Shown in pieces: positions 32,764 to 46,640 of a DNA stretch of 47,789 nucleotides (positions are counted from its first letter, which is position 1; each line of letters opens with the position of its first letter). A model generated the notes under the pieces. The model did not search any database. It saw nothing but the letters and a program-made list of their open reading frames with translations, and had not been told where the DNA came from. The DNA comes from Candidatus Coproplasma excrementigallinarum. Lineage in GTDB: Bacteria; Bacillota; Clostridia; Christensenellales; Borkfalkiaceae. Position numbers and translations under genes: made by a program. The DNA lies in NCBI GenBank assembly GCA_018714625.1, contig DVNE01000034.1:1-47789 (forward strand), given 5' to 3'.

Positions 32764-32791
32764 GTATAAGCTGTACTTATACCCAGTATAA
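32764..32791. promoter_or_regulatory. Composite operator upstream of glutamine synthetase
   Basis: GTATAAG (32764-32770), 5-base centre CTGTA, CTTATAC (32776-32782), three bases, then a third half site GTATAA (32786-32791). The same three-part arrangement occurs at 39362-39389 before the glutamate synthase operon. The element ends 32 bases upstream of the -35 box, a position more typical of an activator than a repressor. It does not match the GlnR consensus as I know it. Confidence 0.75.
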
Positions 32792-32823
32792 AAACTTGCT
32801 AACCTTAATCTGTCGAATAATAT

Positions 32824-32852
32824 TTGACAGTCAAAAATATTTATCTTATAAT
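32824..32852 (+). promoter_or_regulatory. Consensus sigma-A promoter of glnN
   Basis: TTGACA at 32824-32829, exactly 17 bases, TATAAT at 32847-32852. The leader is about 104 bases and contains a small CGGGG/CCCCG stem. Confidence 0.9.
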
Positions 32853-35193: not shown

Positions 35194-35439
35194 CACACAA
35201 AAAATAATTAATAATAATAATTTACAATATAAACTAATAAAAAGTAGCGCATTTTTATTTTGCTGACGGGTACGGCAGATTAAGCTGAAGGAAAATTTAC
35301 TTAAAATATACGCGCCACAAATTCGGGACAATGCCGCGCCGCAGCGCCCGCGCAAGCGTATGGCTGGCCGTGTTATATCGGCCGGAGGGCGGCAAATATC
35401 CCCAGATAAACTGAATAAAATTTTTTGGAGGATATATTT
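35194..35439. other. Gap upstream of amt
   Basis: AT-rich first half, GC-rich second half, no gene. I found no consensus promoter and no copy of the GTATAAG operator. The transporter may be read through from glnN or use a weaker promoter. Confidence 0.45.
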
Positions 35440-37224
35440 ATGACTTGGACTGCTTGGCTGCTTATAGGCGCCGCACTCGTCTTCTTCATGCAGTGCGGCT
35501 TTGCCATGGTTGAAACAGGTTTCACCAGGGCAAAAAATACCGGCAACATCCTTTTCAAGAACTTCGTCGATTTCTGTATCGGCTGCGTCTGCTTCCTCTT
35601 CCTCGGCTTCGGGCTGATGATGGGAGTGGACTACGTCGCAGGATTTATCGGCGTACCCAATCTTGACATCTTCGGCTGCTTTGAAACGCTCTTCCACGGC
35701 GACCCCGCCTCTGCAGATTATGCTGCGGCAACATCTACCGCCGCAAGCTTCGTGTTCAACCTTGTGTTCTGCGCAACCGCCGCAACAATAGTTTCCGGCG
35801 CAATGGCAGAGCGTACCCGTTTCCTGGCATACTGCATCTACTCGGCAATGATTTCGCTCGTAGTATACCCCATCGAGGCAGGCTGGGTATGGAACTCCCA
35901 GGGCTGGCTTATGAACCTCGGCGTAGGTTTCGTAGACTTCGCAGGTTCTGCCGCAATACATACCGTCGGCGGTACTGCATCCCTTATCGGCATTATTTTC
36001 GTCGGCGCGCGTATCGGTAAGTTCGAGCGCGACGAAAATGGCAAAGTAATCAAAGTAAATGTAATTCAGGGTCACAATATGACCATAGGCGCTCTCGGCG
36101 TGCTCATATTGTGGTTCGGTTGGTACGGCTTCAACGGCGCAGCCGCAACGGAAGAAGGTCAGCTTGCAAGAATTTTCGTGACGACTACCATAGCTCCCTC
36201 TGTTGCACTGCTCGTAACTATGATATATACCTGGATAAGGAACAAAAAGCCTGACCTTGTAATGAGCATGAACGCTACGCTTGCAGGTCTTGTAGGCATA
36301 ACGGCAGGCTGCTCCAATCTTGACATAATCGGCGCGCTTGTAGTTGGCGTCGTTTCCGGTTTCCTTGTAATGGGCGGCACCTGGCTGCTTGAACAGAAAC
36401 TTCACCTCGACGACTGCGTAGGCGCTGTACCCGTACACTTCCTCAACGGCGTCTGGGGCACGATTGCAGTAGGTTTCTTTGATGTAAATAACGGTCTCTT
36501 CTACAGCGGCAATGCAGAGCTTTTCGGCATTCAGACACTCGGCCTTGTAACTATCGTTGCCTGGACGGCTGTATGCATGACCATCTTCTTTGCGGCAATC
36601 AAATATATCCCCGTTATGGTTAAGTATAAGACGGTTAAGCCCGCAGAAGTTTTTGCCTATGCAAAGACCTGGAACGGCCTCCGTTGCAACCCCGAGGAAG
36701 AGCTTGTCGGCCTCGACATCAGCGAGCACGGTCTCTCCTCGTCCTATCCCGACTTTGTTCCCTCCGTTCCTTCGTATGACGGCGAGGGTGAAGACGTCGA
36801 CATTTCGGCTGTTAAACCTGTCGCTATCGACCTTGCTCCCGCAAACGAAACAAAGTACACAAAGGTTACTATCATAACCGCTCAGGAGAAGTTCCTCACC
36901 CTTAAGGACGCAATGGCCAAGATAGGCGTAACCGGCATGACCGTATCCAACGTTATGGGCTGCGGCACGCAGGCAGGCAAGATTGGTCAGTACAGGGGCG
37001 TAAAGACGACTATGCGCCTTATCCCCAAGGTACAGGTTGAAATTGTGGTAAGCACGGTAGATCCCAAGCTGGTTGTAGCCGTTGCACAGAAGGTTCTCGA
37101 CGACGGCAAATACGGCGCAGGCAAGATATTCGTCACCGGCATAGAAAACGTAATGCGTGTACGCACGGGAGAAACCGGCGTGGCCGCACTCACCAACGAG
37201 CCGGAGCCCGTTGCCACAAAATAA
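35440..37224 (+). CDS. amt: Ammonium transporter fused to a C-terminal PII domain
   Basis: Residues 1-~400 are an Amt channel with about 11 membrane helices. Both pore histidines are visible (His174 in AAIHTVGG, His333 in VPVHFLNGVWGT), as is the early FKNFVDFCIG segment. After an acidic linker, residues ~472-594 form a PII signalling domain: KVTIITAQEKFLTLKDAMAK, GMTVSNVMGCGTQAG, the T-loop QYRGVKTTMR, PKVQVEIVV and KIFVTGIENVMRVRTGETG. PII proteins sense ATP/ADP and 2-oxoglutarate and plug Amt with the T-loop arginine, kept here as Arg519. The tyrosine uridylylated in enteric PII aligns with Thr523, so that control is absent. Start ATG 35440 with GGAGGA upstream. Confidence 0.95.
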   Translation: MTWTAWLLIGAALVFFMQCGFAMVETGFTRAKNTGNILFKNFVDFCIGCVCFLFLGFGLMMGVDYVAGFIGVPNLDIFGCFETLFHGDPASADYAAATSTAASFVFNLVFCATAATIVSGAMAERTRFLAYCIYSAMISLVVYPIEAGWVWNSQGWLMNLGVGFVDFAGSAAIHTVGGTASLIGIIFVGARIGKFERDENGKVIKVNVIQGHNMTIGALGVLILWFGWYGFNGAAATEEGQLARIFVTTTIAPSVALLVTMIYTWIRNKKPDLVMSMNATLAGLVGITAGCSNLDIIGALVVGVVSGFLVMGGTWLLEQKLHLDDCVGAVPVHFLNGVWGTIAVGFFDVNNGLFYSGNAELFGIQTLGLVTIVAWTAVCMTIFFAAIKYIPVMVKYKTVKPAEVFAYAKTWNGLRCNPEEELVGLDISEHGLSSSYPDFVPSVPSYDGEGEDVDISAVKPVAIDLAPANETKYTKVTIITAQEKFLTLKDAMAKIGVTGMTVSNVMGCGTQAGKIGQYRGVKTTMRLIPKVQVEIVVSTVDPKLVVAVAQKVLDDGKYGAGKIFVTGIENVMRVRTGETGVAALTNEPEPVATK

Positions 37225-39361: not shown

Positions 39362-39389
39362 GTATAAGTTGTGCTTATACTATGTATAA
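39362..39389. promoter_or_regulatory. Composite operator upstream of glutamate synthase operon
   Basis: GTATAAG (39362-39368), centre TTGTG, CTTATAC (39374-39380), three bases, GTATAA (39384-39389). It has the same geometry as the element at 32764-32791; centres agree as YTGTR. It ends 52 bases before the -35 box, 20 bases (about two helical turns) further than at glnN, so it would face the polymerase on the same side. Confidence 0.75.
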
Positions 39390-39441
39390 ATATAAACTAT
39401 CTTTCACGCTCCTATAAATTGCCTTTTCCAAACATTTACGC

Positions 39442-39470
39442 TTGACTTGAAGTGCCGTTTTTTATATAAT
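39442..39470 (+). promoter_or_regulatory. Sigma-A promoter of the glutamate synthase operon
   Basis: TTGACT at 39442-39447, 17-bp spacer, TATAAT at 39465-39470. It gives a leader of about 157 bases. Confidence 0.85.
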
Positions 39471-39633: not shown

Positions 39634-40758
39634 ATGTTCATTACCGAAAAAGATTGCAATACCTCCCTGGAAGGCGAGGTAAGAATACCCTCCGGCTGCG
39701 CCGTAAGCGCCATTATAGACCGCAGCGGCGGCAGAATGACGGGCGATAAAATAATTCGCTCCATAGCCACCATGCACGACAGGTCCAACGGCCTCGGCGG
39801 CGGCTTTGCAGGCTACGGCATATATCCCGACTATAAGGATTATTACGCCTTCCATCTCTTCTTCGACGACCGTATCGCCCGCAAGGAGACCGAGGACTAT
39901 CTCGCCGCCCATTTCGAGGTGGTGTATTCCTCTGAAATGAAGACCAAAAAGGTGGCGGGCATACACGGCGAGCCCCTCATTTTCCGCTATTTCCTGTACC
40001 CGCTCTCCAAGCGTCTTGCAAATTCCCTGCTCGACGAGGAGCAGTATGTGGTGCGCTGCGTAAACGCAATCAATACCAACATCAAGGGCGCGTTTGTCTT
40101 TTCCAGCGGCAAAAACATGGGCATATTCAAGGGCGTAGGCTTCCCCGAAGATATAGGCAGGTTCTTCCTCCTTGACGAGGAATACGAAGGCTATATGTGG
40201 ACGGCTCACGGCCGCTATCCCACAAACACCCCCGGCTGGTGGGGCGGCGCGCATCCCTTCGGCCTTTTGAGCTATTCGGTTGTCCACAACGGCGAAATCT
40301 CTTCCTACGACGCAAACAGAAGATACATAGAGATGTTCGGCTACAAGTGCAACCTCCAGACCGATACCGAAGTTATAACCTATATAATAGACTTTTTGCT
40401 CAGGGTAAAAAAACTCACGCTGGAAGAGGTGGCAAAGGTAATTTCCGCCTCGTTCTGGACTACGATAGACGACAAGAGCGAAGACGACAGGCGTCAGGAA
40501 ACATTTTTGCGCAAGGCCTTCCCCTCGCTGCTCATAAACGGCCCGTTCTCCATAATATTCGGGTTCGACGGCGGACTGATGGCCTTGAACGACAGATTGA
40601 AGCTGCGCTCTATGGTGTGTGCGGAAAAGGGCGACCTCGCCTTTGTTTCCTCTGAAGAGTGCGGCATAAGGGTTATTCAGCCGCAGCTTGACAGCATATT
40701 TGCACCCGCAGGCGGCCAGCCCGTAATTTACACCCTGCGTGAAGGAGTAGGCAGATGA
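39634..40758 (+). CDS. Split glutamate synthase, glutaminase (class II GATase) subunit
   Basis: This 374-residue protein is the amidotransferase part of an archaeal-type glutamate synthase, releasing ammonia from glutamine. The predicted nucleophile is Cys22 in RIPSGCAVSAIIDRSGG, so about 21 residues would have to be cleaved to free it, as known for other class II amidotransferases. HDRSNGLGGGFAGYGIYPDYKDYYAFH and AHGRYPTNTPG, followed by VVHNGEISSYDANRRY, complete the active site. ATG 39634 has GGAG five bases before it; earlier in-frame starts fall inside the leader and are rejected. It overlaps the next gene by ATGA. Expression probably depends on the operator at 39362 and perhaps the leader hairpins. 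Confidence 0.9.
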   Translation: MFITEKDCNTSLEGEVRIPSGCAVSAIIDRSGGRMTGDKIIRSIATMHDRSNGLGGGFAGYGIYPDYKDYYAFHLFFDDRIARKETEDYLAAHFEVVYSSEMKTKKVAGIHGEPLIFRYFLYPLSKRLANSLLDEEQYVVRCVNAINTNIKGAFVFSSGKNMGIFKGVGFPEDIGRFFLLDEEYEGYMWTAHGRYPTNTPGWWGGAHPFGLLSYSVVHNGEISSYDANRRYIEMFGYKCNLQTDTEVITYIIDFLLRVKKLTLEEVAKVISASFWTTIDDKSEDDRRQETFLRKAFPSLLINGPFSIIFGFDGGLMALNDRLKLRSMVCAEKGDLAFVSSEECGIRVIQPQLDSIFAPAGGQPVIYTLREGVGR

Positions 40759-42260
40759 AAGACATTTTTATTCCCGCCGAGTACGAGGTCGTGCGCAATC
40801 CCGACCTGTGCATTGCCTGCAGGGTATGCGAAAGGCAATGTTCAAACGGCGTGCATGAGTACGATAAAGATTTAAAAAAGATGATAGCGGACAGCACCAA
40901 GTGCGTAAACTGCCACAGGTGCGTCTGCATGTGCCCCACGCACGCGCTCAAGATAGTAAAGAGCGACGATACCTATAAAATAAACTACAATTGGCCCGTT
41001 CAGACCATGAACGAGGTGTTCAGGCAGGCGGCTACGGGCGGCGTGTTGCTCTCTTCAATGGGCAACCCCACCGAAAATCCCATCTATTTCAATAAGATAC
41101 TGGTAAACGCCTCGCAGGTAACCAACCCGCCCATCGACCCCCTCCGCGAGCCCATGGAGACTACCGTCTACCTCGGCAAAAAGGATGTGGAGATAAAGAG
41201 GGACGCGCGCGGAATGCTCGTGGACAACCTTCCTCCCCAGTTAAAGCTTACAACGCCCATAATGTTCTCGGCAATGAGCTACGGCTCTATCTCATACAAC
41301 GCGCATGAGGCGCTCGCCCGTGCGGCTGAGGAGCTGGGTATTTACTACAACACCGGCGAAGGCGGACTGCATACCGATTTCTATAAATACGGCAAAAACA
41401 CAATAGTGCAGGTGGCATCGGGCAGGTTCGGCGTGCACGAACAGTATCTGAAGACGGCCGCCGCGATAGAGATAAAGATGGGTCAGGGCGCAAAGCCCGG
41501 CATAGGCGGACATCTGCCCGGAATGAAGATTTCCGACGACGTCTCTAAGACGCGTATGATACCCAAGGGCGTAGATGCAATTTCGCCCGCGCCCCATCAC
41601 GATATCTATTCGATAGAGGATTTAAGGCAGCTCATATACAGCCTCAAGGAGGCTACCGACTATAAAAAGCCCGTCATAGTAAAGGTTGCGGCCGTGCACA
41701 ACGTTGCGGCGATAGCTTCGGGCATTGCGCGCAGCGGCGCGGACATAATAGCCATAGACGGCTTCCGCGGCGGTACGGGCGCAGCGCCTACCAGAATAAG
41801 GGATAACGTAGGCATTCCCATCGAGCTGGCTTTAGCGCAGGTCGACGAGCGTCTCCGTCAGGAGGGCATACGCGAAAACGTATCCGTAGTGGTAGGCGGT
41901 TCAATTCACTCCAGTTCAGACGTGGTAAAGGCCATAGCGCTCGGCGCGGACGCGTGCTACATAGCAACTGCCGCCGTGCTTGCGCTCGGTTGCCATCTCT
42001 GCCGCAGCTGCCATTCGGGCAAGTGCAACTGGGGTATTGCCACACAGCGCCCCGACCTTGTAAAAAGGCTCAATCCCGATGTCGGCAAGGAGCGCCTTGT
42101 AAACCTCGTCCACGCCTGGACGCACGAAATCCAGGAGATGATGGGCGGCATGGGCATCAACTCCATCGAAGCCCTCCGCGGTAACAGACTTATGTTGCGC
42201 GGCATAGGCCTCAACGAGACGGAGCTGAGGATACTCGGAATAAAGCACGCAGGCGAGTAA
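40755..42260 (+). CDS. Split glutamate synthase, FMN/Fe-S synthase subunit
   Basis: The 501-residue core subunit makes glutamate from 2-oxoglutarate and ammonia. It starts with a two-cluster ferredoxin domain (CIACRVCERQC and CVNCHRCVCMCP, residues ~18-65), as in archaeal-type enzymes. The FMN-binding barrel follows: FSAMSYGSISYNAHEALARAA, GEGGLHTDFYK, KPGIGGHLPG, AIDGFRGGTGAAPT and VVVGGSIHSSSDVVKAIALGAD. The final cysteine group in GCHLCRSCHSGKCNWGIATQ ligates the [3Fe-4S] cluster. It is translationally coupled to the glutaminase subunit, with GAAGGAG before the ATG. Confidence 0.94.
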   Translation: MKDIFIPAEYEVVRNPDLCIACRVCERQCSNGVHEYDKDLKKMIADSTKCVNCHRCVCMCPTHALKIVKSDDTYKINYNWPVQTMNEVFRQAATGGVLLSSMGNPTENPIYFNKILVNASQVTNPPIDPLREPMETTVYLGKKDVEIKRDARGMLVDNLPPQLKLTTPIMFSAMSYGSISYNAHEALARAAEELGIYYNTGEGGLHTDFYKYGKNTIVQVASGRFGVHEQYLKTAAAIEIKMGQGAKPGIGGHLPGMKISDDVSKTRMIPKGVDAISPAPHHDIYSIEDLRQLIYSLKEATDYKKPVIVKVAAVHNVAAIASGIARSGADIIAIDGFRGGTGAAPTRIRDNVGIPIELALAQVDERLRQEGIRENVSVVVGGSIHSSSDVVKAIALGADACYIATAAVLALGCHLCRSCHSGKCNWGIATQRPDLVKRLNPDVGKERLVNLVHAWTHEIQEMMGGMGINSIEALRGNRLMLRGIGLNETELRILGIKHAGE

Positions 42261-42544: not shown

Positions 42545-43825
42545 ATGCTTACAAGTATCTGTGGTATCAACTGGGGCGATGAAGGCAAGGGCAGAATGGT
42601 TGACCTGCTTTCGCGCGATTTCGACATTGTATGCCGTTATCAGGGCGGCAACAACGCCGGACACACCGTCATCAATGAAAAGGGTAAGTTCATTTTAAAC
42701 CTGCTTCCTTCGGGCATCCTGCGCGAAGAGGTAGTCAATATTCTTGGATGCGGCATGGTAATCGACTTAAAGCATCTGTGCGGCGAAATAGAAAAACTGC
42801 GCAACGCAGGCATAAAAATCACGCCCGATAACCTTAAGATAAGCGATAAAGCCGTAATAACAATGCCCTACAATGTTCTTCAGGACGTTATGGAGGAAGA
42901 CAGACTTTCCAAGGCGACAGGCAAGCCCTACGGCTCTACCCGCCGCGGCATCGCTCCCATATATGCAGATAAATATATGAAAAAGGCCTTCCGCATGGGC
43001 GAGCTTTTAAATACCAAGCTCATGTTCAAGCGCCTGCCCGACATAGTGGCGTGGAAAAACCTCACCGTCACCGCATACGGCTACGACCCCATAAAGGTTG
43101 AGGATATGATAGATTACCTCGTAACCTACGGCGAGCCGCTCAAGGAATTTATAACAGATACCGGAGTATACCTCAACAATGCGCACAAGGCTGGCAAGAA
43201 CATAATGTTCGAAGCACAGCTCGGCGCTCTGCGCGATATAGACTACGGTATAGTGCCCTATACCTCGAGCTCTTCCACAATAGCGGCATACGCGCCCATA
43301 GGCGCGGGCGTGCCCAACTTAAAGCTCGATAAATCCATAGGCATAATGAAGGCCTATTCAAGCTGCGTAGGCGCAGGCCCCTTCACCTGCGAATACTTCG
43401 GCGAGCAGGCCGAAAGACTGCGCGAGCTCGGCGGCGAGTACGGCGCGGCCACCGGCAGACCCAGAAGGGTAGGCCCGTTCGACGTGGTTGCCTCGCGCTA
43501 CGGCATACGCTGCCAGGGCGCGGACGAAATTGCCCTCACCAAGCTCGACATTCTCGACGACTACGAGGAGATAGAAATCTGCACGCACTACGAGCTTGAC
43601 GGCAAGATAATAGACGATTTCCCCTTCACCGACGTGCTTGACTACTGCAAGCCCGTGTTTGAAAAGGTCAAGGGCTGGAACTGCGACATATCGGGCTGCA
43701 AAAAGCCCGAAGACCTCCCCAAAGAGGCTATCGACTACATAAAGCTTCTCGAAAAGCTCTGCGGCTGCCGCATAAGGTACGTCTCTGTAGGCGCTGAACG
43801 CGACGCCTGCATCAAGATGTATTGA
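42545..43825 (+). CDS. purA: Adenylosuccinate synthetase
   Basis: Joins IMP and aspartate using GTP, the first committed step to AMP. The 426-residue protein has the hallmark GINWGDEGKGRMVDLLSRD with the catalytic Asp, GGNNAGHTV with the catalytic His, GSTRRGIAPIYADK, MFEAQLGALRDIDYG for the GTP-coupled loop and TGRPRRVGPFD. AAGGAC lies upstream of the ATG. It interrupts the glutamate synthase genes, all on the same strand, so purine and nitrogen metabolism may be co-expressed. Confidence 0.96.
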   Translation: MLTSICGINWGDEGKGRMVDLLSRDFDIVCRYQGGNNAGHTVINEKGKFILNLLPSGILREEVVNILGCGMVIDLKHLCGEIEKLRNAGIKITPDNLKISDKAVITMPYNVLQDVMEEDRLSKATGKPYGSTRRGIAPIYADKYMKKAFRMGELLNTKLMFKRLPDIVAWKNLTVTAYGYDPIKVEDMIDYLVTYGEPLKEFITDTGVYLNNAHKAGKNIMFEAQLGALRDIDYGIVPYTSSSSTIAAYAPIGAGVPNLKLDKSIGIMKAYSSCVGAGPFTCEYFGEQAERLRELGGEYGAATGRPRRVGPFDVVASRYGIRCQGADEIALTKLDILDDYEEIEICTHYELDGKIIDDFPFTDVLDYCKPVFEKVKGWNCDISGCKKPEDLPKEAIDYIKLLEKLCGCRIRYVSVGAERDACIKMY

Positions 43826-44471: not shown

Positions 44472-45704
44472 ATGAAATATGTTATAATCGGCAACTCAAT
44501 AGCGGCGACCGCCTGCATAGAGGGCATACGCAGCGTGGATAAGGAGGGCGGCATAGCCGTCATCTCTGCGGAAAACTACCCCGTTTACGGCAGGCCGCTT
44601 ATCTCGTACTGCCTGCTCGGCAGGGTAAAGCGTGAAAATATGGGCTACCGTCCCGACGATTTTTACGGCAAAAACGATGTGTCGGTGTACTACGGCCGCA
44701 CCGCGACAAAGATTGACGCCGCCGCAAAGAAGGTTATACTCGATAACGGCAAGGAGATTGAGTACGAAAAACTGCTCGCTGCAACGGGTTCGCGCCCCTT
44801 TGTTCCGCCCATGCAGGGGCTGGACGGCGTCAAGGATAAATTCTCGTTCATGACTATGGACGATATGCTCGCGCTTGAAGGCGCGCTCTCGCCCGAAAAG
44901 GATGTGCTCGTCATAGGCGCAGGCCTTATCGGCCTTAAGTGCGTGGAGGGCATACTTCACCTTGCAAAATCGGTCACCGTCGTCGATATGGCCGACCGTA
45001 TTCTTCCCTCAATTCTCGACAGCGAGGGCTCTGCGCTCGTTCAGCGCGGACTTGAAGAAAAGGGCGTAAAGTTCTTCCTCTCGGACAGCGCGGAAAAATT
45101 CGATGGCAACACCGCATACCTCAAAAACAGCAAAAAGAAGATAGATTTCGATATACTCGTGGTTGCCGTTGGCGTGCGCCCCAATACCGACCTTGTAAAG
45201 GAGGCGGGCGGCGAGGTAAACCGCGGCATAGTGGTGGATAAGGGCATGCACACGTCCATACCCGACGTGTACGCCGCAGGCGACTGCGCCGAGGGGTTCG
45301 ACAGTTCCATCGGTTCCAACCGCATACTTGCGCTTCTTCCCAACGCCTATTTCCAGGGCAACATCGCAGGCGTGAATATGGCAGGCGGCATAGCTTCCCA
45401 TACTGACGCCATTCCCATGAACGCCATCGGCTTTTTTGAAACGCACGTGCTCACCGCGGGCGTGTACGAAGGCGAGGTCATAGCCGATATTCACGACAAT
45501 ACCTATAAAAAACTGTTTGTAAAGGACGGCCGCCTTGTCGGCTTCATACTCATAAACAACTTTTTGCGCGCGGGCATATATACTTCGCTCATACGCGAAA
45601 AGACGCCGCTCGACGAAGTGGACTTTGCGCTTCTCGAACAAGAGCCGCAGCTTCTGGCATTTTCAAAAGAGGTACGCAAGCAAAAGCTTGCACAGCAGGT
45701 CTGA
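44472..45704 (+). CDS. FAD/NAD(P)-dependent oxidoreductase of the glutamate synthase system
   Basis: This 410-residue flavoprotein has an N-terminal FAD motif (VIIGNSIAATACIEGIR), an NAD(P)-binding motif VLVIGAGLIGLKCVEGI (about residue 147), ATGSRPF and the second FAD motif VYAAGDCAEGFD. It resembles the COG1251 group (NirB-like NAD(P)H oxidoreductases). In this operon it should oxidise NAD(P)H and pass electrons through the ferredoxin to glutamate synthase, in place of classical GltD. GAAGG lies upstream of the ATG. Confidence 0.9.
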   Translation: MKYVIIGNSIAATACIEGIRSVDKEGGIAVISAENYPVYGRPLISYCLLGRVKRENMGYRPDDFYGKNDVSVYYGRTATKIDAAAKKVILDNGKEIEYEKLLAATGSRPFVPPMQGLDGVKDKFSFMTMDDMLALEGALSPEKDVLVIGAGLIGLKCVEGILHLAKSVTVVDMADRILPSILDSEGSALVQRGLEEKGVKFFLSDSAEKFDGNTAYLKNSKKKIDFDILVVAVGVRPNTDLVKEAGGEVNRGIVVDKGMHTSIPDVYAAGDCAEGFDSSIGSNRILALLPNAYFQGNIAGVNMAGGIASHTDAIPMNAIGFFETHVLTAGVYEGEVIADIHDNTYKKLFVKDGRLVGFILINNFLRAGIYTSLIREKTPLDEVDFALLEQEPQLLAFSKEVRKQKLAQQV

Positions 45705-45911: not shown

Positions 45912-46640
45912 ATGGAAATAACCGTAGATGAAAACGTGCATTTCGAGGCGCTTAACCGCATCGTGCGCGAAAGTAAGGATACAGATATAACTATAAACGG
46001 CTGCGTCGGTCAAAGGTACATAGCCGACGGCCTTTCGGGCAAGCGCATAGTAATAAACGGCGTGCCCGGCAACGCGCTCGGCGCATATATGAACGGCTGC
46101 GAGGTGATAGTTCACGGCAACGTTCAGGAGGCCACGGGCGACACAATGAACAGCGGAAAGATAATCGTATACGGCAACGCGGGCGACGCCACGGGCTACG
46201 CCATGCGCGGCGGCAGAATATATATCCGCGGCAACATAGGCTACCGTGCGGGCATTCATATGAAGGCCTACATGGATTTCAGACCTGCCATAGTTGTCGG
46301 CGGCAGGGCAGGTTCATTCCTCGGCGAATACCAGGCGGGCGGCGTAATTGTTGTGCTCGGCCAGAATACCGACGGTCTGCCCATAATAAATAACTTCTGC
46401 GGCACGGGTATGCACGGCGGAGTTATCTATCTTCGCTGCGACGTTCTTCCCCGCTCGCTGCCCCGCCAGGTTGCCTCTGAAAAGAAATGGGGCGCAGATA
46501 TAGCCGAATTATCCGAGCTTGTGCGTGACTGGTGCAACTTCTTCCCCGAGTACAATGCCGACGAACTTCTTGCGCACAACTTCTTTGTGCTCACCCCCAA
46601 CAGCGCCAACCCCTACAAGCAGATGTACACCAACAATTAA
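45912..46640 (+). CDS. Split glutamate synthase, GXGXG (alpha-beta helix) subunit
   Basis: The 242-residue protein is the structural C-terminal domain of glutamate synthase on its own. It has the repeated pattern GKRIVINGVPGNALG, VIVHGNVQEATGDTMNSG, IIVYGNAGDATGYAMRGG and IYIRGNIGYRAG, which builds a right-handed beta-helix that links the glutaminase and synthase sites. After GGVIVVLGQN comes a C-terminal tail of about 80 residues. An ideal AAGGAGG precedes the ATG. With the genes at 39634, 40755, 43879 and 44472 this completes the split enzyme. Confidence 0.92.
   Translation: MEITVDENVHFEALNRIVRESKDTDITINGCVGQRYIADGLSGKRIVINGVPGNALGAYMNGCEVIVHGNVQEATGDTMNSGKIIVYGNAGDATGYAMRGGRIYIRGNIGYRAGIHMKAYMDFRPAIVVGGRAGSFLGEYQAGGVIVVLGQNTDGLPIINNFCGTGMHGGVIYLRCDVLPRSLPRQVASEKKWGADIAELSELVRDWCNFFPEYNADELLAHNFFVLTPNSANPYKQMYTNN

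Follow-up and report, generated by a model that had tools for sequence, protein, structure and literature searches.

A conserved operator stands upstream of glnN, gdhA and glutamate synthase genes in the genus to which the window belongs (the window being the whole stretch of 47,789 nucleotides that was analysed). Very probably it is bound by L116, a LysR-type regulator (LTTR) that is encoded next to mnmE and would act as a tetramer, activating these three targets and repressing its own mnmE-LTTR operon, with 2-oxoglutarate as the guessed effector. This reading builds on the site and its spacing, its conservation, its loss together with the LTTR, a dyad at the promoter of the LTTR operon and the linkage of the genes, all of which were observed.

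Two copies of a doubled operator in the window

The 28-bp pattern GTATAAG-N5-CTTATAC-N3-GTATAA was matched exactly at 32764-32791 and 39362-39389, both on the + strand, and had no match, even with up to three mismatches, in 100 dinucleotide-preserving shuffles of the window, in agreement with the repeated motif of constant spacing described in an earlier note on this DNA. Downstream, where sigma-A promoters of ammonia-assimilation genes had been placed, sigma-A-like promoters were also found, with TTGACA/TATAAT before glnN and TTGACT/TATAAT before the glutamate synthase genes (Table 1), and the gap between site and -35 box was 32 bp at the former and 52 bp at the latter, reproducing the 20-bp difference in offset. 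The YTGTR centre, also part of the original description, was indeed common to both window copies but mostly lost in relatives. An RNA element at the operators was considered and rejected, with no Rfam match at either of the two loci.

Alignment of the genus sites revealed one half-site per 11 bp, in the order ATAA-N7-TTAT-N7-ATAA-N7-nnA. The three-part operator proposed earlier was dropped in favour of four half-sites, since the A at the fourth position is conserved at glnN, gdhA and glutamate synthase alike; this A is kept in 59 of the 67 aligned sites, in a half-site that is degenerate and has the same 7-bp spacing, and the original third half-site (ATAA, of the type seen at 32788-32791) becomes the upstream half of a second box. 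Both the T and the A of T-N11-A were present in 64/67 sites for the first box and 58/67 for the second. The two boxes lie 22 bp apart, as expected of a LysR-type operator, with its doubled box about two turns apart, and the whole layout looks like that of an LTTR tetramer site.

Regarding the surrounding genes, glutamate synthase is apparently split over separate genes between 39634 and 46640, with purA (42545-43825) sitting among them. The ammonium transporter at 35425-37224 has a fused C-terminal P-II-like domain (residues about 481-589).

Table 1 Operators, promoters and ammonia-assimilation genes of the window.
Feature	Position	Strand	Details
Operator at glnN	32764..32802	+	Half-sites ATAA 32766-32769, TTAT 32777-32780, ATAA 32788-32791, degenerate CTAA 32799-32802; position conserved in genus
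Sigma-A-like promoter of glnN	32824..32852	+	TTGACA 32824-32829, TATAAT 32847-32852
Glutamine synthetase gene glnN, type III-like, 693 aa	32963..35044	+	NCBIfam GlnA match below cut-off; relatives in genus
Operator at glutamate synthase	39362..39400	+	Half-sites ATAA 39364-39367, TTAT 39375-39378, ATAA 39386-39389, degenerate CTAT 39397-39400; position conserved in genus
Sigma-A-like promoter at glutamate synthase	39442..39470	+	TTGACT 39442-39447, TATAAT 39465-39470
Glutamate synthase, amidotransferase-like subunit gene	39634..40758	+	Weak matches to glutamate synthase and amidotransferase models
Glutamate synthase, ferredoxin and synthase-domain subunit gene	40755..42260	+	PRK11750 positions 837-1174, E 2.8e-87
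FAD oxidoreductase gene	44472-45704		Apparent part of split glutamate synthase
GXGXG gene	45912-46640		Apparent part of split glutamate synthase

The operator is conserved before three families of nitrogen genes

We scanned 61 genomes with the window's own 28-bp pattern, allowing up to three mismatches, a search that is non-circular; a model termed R1 was also built, and scans with it are partly circular because it derives from 50 of the 67 sites. The pattern scan returned 49 matches, 47 of them within the genus. Outside the window's contig, 30 of 45 matches preceded glnN, gdhA or glutamate synthase by at most 330 bp, and 28 of these ran in the direction of the gene, supporting the anticipated association with nitrogen genes. 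Among the 15 others are the C27 and C7 places of the window's own genome (G000) and a relative of C7 in G002; the remaining ones were taken as unassigned or chance matches.

Upstream regions were scored with a profile leaving out the tested genome, against 100 block shuffles per region, L123, L146, L159 and L161 being set aside for glnN and gdhA. In LTTR-positive genus genomes, the site passed in 29 of 32 testable glnN regions and 27 of 28 testable gdhA regions, and at glutamate synthase it was present with at most five mismatches in 16/20 loci. Its position lies at fixed offsets in orthologous, otherwise diverged promoters, so that the conservation upstream of glnN and glutamate synthase orthologues on which the earlier note depended was recovered. 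There was no site at glnN of G008 and G018, although both genomes carry the LTTR; glnN of G036 narrowly missed the threshold with its dyad kept (score 8.1, p 0.02), as did gdhA of G007 (score 20.5, p 0.02). The gdhA genes are of the NADP type (NCBIfam equivalog above cut-off in nine proteins). Among glnN genes of named records, the site was present too in L035-L037 (72-78% identical), with weaker matches in L072 and L077 (58% identical).

These data leave a chance similarity of AT-rich, promoter-like half-sites hardly credible. The half-sites do resemble -10 boxes, and a reversed-pattern control gave 13 matches in the 61 genomes, but the true pattern gave its 49, most of those outside the window before three gene families, with none in window shuffles and with a conserved position in diverged promoters; we consider chance refuted by the shuffles, the 61-genome scan and the leave-genome-out profile test.

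An LTTR linked to mnmE is the candidate regulator

Two LTTRs, L116 and L115, were found in G000 (1.43 Mb, 75.7% complete). L116 is encoded outside the window, just downstream of mnmE (C58:39388-40266), and has an orthologue with at least 62% identity in 35 of 41 genus genomes. An L116-type gene followed mnmE in all 30 fetched genus loci, and five loci from the family's other genera (L297-L301) showed the same order. L115, which by eye adjoins an opposite-strand acetyltransferase-like gene, was rejected as the regulator, and so was the gene before gdhA, an amidohydrolase in six loci.

Upstream of mnmE, 19/20 LTTR-positive genus regions had a perfect ATAA-N7-TTAT dyad, where shuffles predict 0.35, and in most cases it follows closely on a -10-like box; in the twentieth (L234) the dyad lies at the edge of the scanned stretch. 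No perfect dyad was found in five LTTR-negative regions, though the mnmE promoter of G063 (L261), where the LTTR is lacking, retains a dyad with one mismatch. In the family's other genera, three of four mnmE regions had a dyad, which in L298 may lie within the gene; these counts leave aside, as too short, 12 loci of the genus and one of the family. A site directly before the LTTR gene was discarded, the preceding 300 bp holding none with fewer than eight mismatches, and the dyad stands before mnmE instead. Its position suggests autorepression of the mnmE-LTTR operon.

We then followed the sites in genomes that lack the regulator. In G009, G019, G034, G062 and G063, mnmE is kept beside another gene and there is no L116-type LTTR, the mnmE tree indicating about three losses. 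The gene is also absent from G004, where this may reflect a gap, since mnmE itself was not found there. No site was detected at glnN of G004, G062 and G063, nor at gdhA of G009 and G034, other target regions of the LTTR-less genomes being absent or cut. Presence of the site was associated with that of the LTTR both for glnN (Fisher p 0.0025) and for gdhA (p 0.007), in tests that ignore kinship. G009 has two glnN copies, one without site and one (L240) with a good site (score 27.3) despite having no L116-type LTTR; its listed contamination is 5%, and contamination or transfer were both considered for the L240 copy.

A different regulator, LTTR or of another family, could bind the operator while the mnmE-linked LTTR is merely co-distributed, which we regard as unlikely. 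The L240 site is in its favour, as is the finding that several genomes, G004 and G062 among them, have LTTRs of a second group with about 30-35% identity to L116, and our regulator survey took in LTTRs only. However, the spacing and the T-N11-A boxes fit LTTRs; in six site-bearing genomes (G008, G011, G020, G021, G023 and G030) the L116-type protein was the sole LTTR returned by the search; the same dyad marks the mnmE-LTTR promoter and is gone where the LTTR was lost; and G004 and G062, which have the second group, are without site at glnN. The mnmE-linked LTTR thus remains our candidate. Two further cases of linkage concern its relatives: in G010, a cluster of amt, glutamate synthase subunits and a GXGXG gene ends with an L116 paralogue (54% identical) and has no site directly before its glutamate synthase gene, and in G183, which belongs to another family, 9 bp separate a relative (37%) from the glnN gene that follows it.

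Sites keep their helical phase relative to the promoter

The distance from the 28-bp site to the -10 box was 54-56 bp in 47, 65-66 bp in 6 and 75-77 bp in 13 of 66 promoters, which share ancestry and hence are not 66 independent events. These three classes are about one helical turn apart, with the greatest vector length (0.959) at 10.5 bp among the periods tried. The same-face placement remarked on for the two window copies therefore holds and extends to three offset classes. Only one class was seen at glnN, and two each at gdhA (-35 box at 30-33 or 42-43) and at glutamate synthase (-35 box at 32 or 52-54). Distances were drawn from 25/30 glnN, 27/30 gdhA and 16/20 glutamate synthase loci, rows being dropped for contig edges (L123, L146, L159), lack of a site (L135, L169, L188), seven mismatches (L136, L174, L187), a spacing variant whose promoter the script did not find (L141) or a missing gene start (L194, L195); L157 and L161, where the script misidentified the promoter or the site, were excluded from the classes, and L197-L206 were not used, being distant paralogues.

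With the start site taken about 7 bp after the -10 box, box centres lie near -86 and -64 at glnN and near -106 and -84 at glutamate synthase. For OxyR and LysR they lie near -65 and -43 (PMC5002191). Because the boxes here are further upstream, the LTTR would act from further upstream too, in the manner of a class I activator, and it is from site position that activation, rather than another form of control, appears the likelier mode.

We also regard repression of the ammonia-assimilation genes by the same LTTR as unlikely. LTTRs can repress, and at the mnmE promoter the proposed site is placed as for a repressor, but the sites at glnN, gdhA and glutamate synthase are wholly upstream of the -35 box and at phase-keeping distances, as for contact with polymerase, and a repressor needs neither.

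Comparison with known regulators

L116 matched HTH_1 (PF00126) with 79.7 bits (cut-off 26.6) and LysR_substrate (PF03466) with 115.5 bits (cut-off 28). None of the 18 NCBIfam models matched at 1e-20 reached its cut-off, with 111.1 bits for GltC (NF053705, cut-off 350), 81.8 for CcpC (NF058504, cut-off 400) and 74.9 for a CbbR model that covers one CbbR group (NF045990, cut-off 450). The LTTR NAC serves nitrogen control in enteric bacteria, has an ATA-N9-TAT site and is itself expressed under nitrogen control; no NAC model is among those 18 families. The site of GlnR/TnrA is TGTNA-N7-TNACA. By eye, and as a comparison of sites only, this pattern is absent from both window operators, consistently with their description as not GlnR-like. 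CcmR of Synechocystis, which has other targets, is the nearest solved structure to L116 (PDB 5y2v, with 2-oxoglutarate), a closeness that is one of sequence profile and overall fold, at about 20% identity; the predicted structure of L116 had a mean pLDDT of 89.7.

GltC of Bacillus subtilis is an LTTR that activates gltAB via boxes I and II and is stimulated by 2-oxoglutarate (PMC6794564). The likeness lies in an LTTR at glutamate synthase genes; in contrast to GltC, glnN and gdhA share the site here, the boxes are further upstream and the regulator gene has mnmE as its partner. For OxyR and other LTTRs, ATAG-N7-CTAT boxes 22 bp apart are described, as four repeats in contiguous grooves (PMC5002191), and this doubled T-N11-A arrangement is the one found here, whereas the box positions, near -86 and -64 or further upstream against about -66 and -44 there, and the targets differ. 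CcpC of Bacillus, a citrate-responsive LTTR, has the identical half-site letters ATAA and TTAT (PMC8514465), but its elements are centred at -66 and -27, unlike ours. Judged by title and opening of the abstract, none of the open-licence papers found on LTTR or nitrogen control of these genes seemed to deal with this regulator.

Additional targets and reach beyond the genus

In G000, only two further places had at most three mismatches. The C27 site (L003:1501-1528), third-best of that genome with two mismatches, precedes a gene for a BspA-type leucine-rich-repeat protein, and a TTGACA that is part of a promoter-like pair begins 44 bp after it (counted by eye). The C7 site precedes a T-box leader and a class II tRNA synthetase gene. 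A reverse-orientation site before an aspartate--tRNA ligase-like (aspS-like) gene was present in G000, G002, G014, G015 and G029 (loci L004, L388, L375, L384 and L386); the T-box leader was matched in both genomes tested, G000 and G002 (L004, L014), and the aspS-like protein of G029 is partial and just under cut-off. No other common target was noticed in 20 regions inspected.

Across the order, LTTRs matching at 1e-30 were found in 38/151 genomes. Among 28 chosen genomes outside the genus, upstream regions scored at least 15 in 7/35 LTTR-positive cases (gdhA of G158, G124, G104 and G082, from the same family, and of G103, from family f14; glnN of G158 and of G053, from f18) and in 0/15 LTTR-negative ones; the other 28 LTTR-positive regions scored below 15. 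The regulatory system seems older than the genus but often changed or undetectable.

Proposed mechanism and significance

We infer that two dimers of L116 would occupy four successive half-sites, a strong upstream dyad, with its centre near -86 for glnN and near -106 for glutamate synthase, and a weaker one 22 bp downstream. The bound LTTR would contact RNA polymerase and so activate glnN, gdhA and glutamate synthase; since action from far upstream would need the right face of the DNA, offsets of 0, 1 or 2 helical turns would follow. The same protein may repress its own mnmE-LTTR operon through the dyad just downstream of the -10 box. As to the effector, 2-oxoglutarate is a guess prompted by the CcmR structure solved with this ligand and made more natural by the response of GltC to 2-oxoglutarate (PMC6794564).

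The nitrogen regulator foreseen in the earlier note is therefore supported and extended, by gdhA as a further target, an LTTR-type site and a candidate regulator. In a broader reading, to which we give even chances, a master nitrogen LTTR not described before, whose gene accompanies the tRNA-modification gene mnmE and which senses the carbon/nitrogen state (perhaps through 2-oxoglutarate), would control from phased upstream sites glnN, NADP-gdhA and glutamate synthase, the three main ammonia routes into amino acids, and in one clade also the aspS leader, replacing GlnR/TnrA in this lineage and leaving traces in other families of the order. For uncultured gut Clostridia, this would put a name to a candidate nitrogen regulator and supply a list of targets and a definition of the operator with which genomes can be scanned; the promoters also form a natural series along which an LTTR seemingly acts from 0, 1 or 2 helical turns further upstream.
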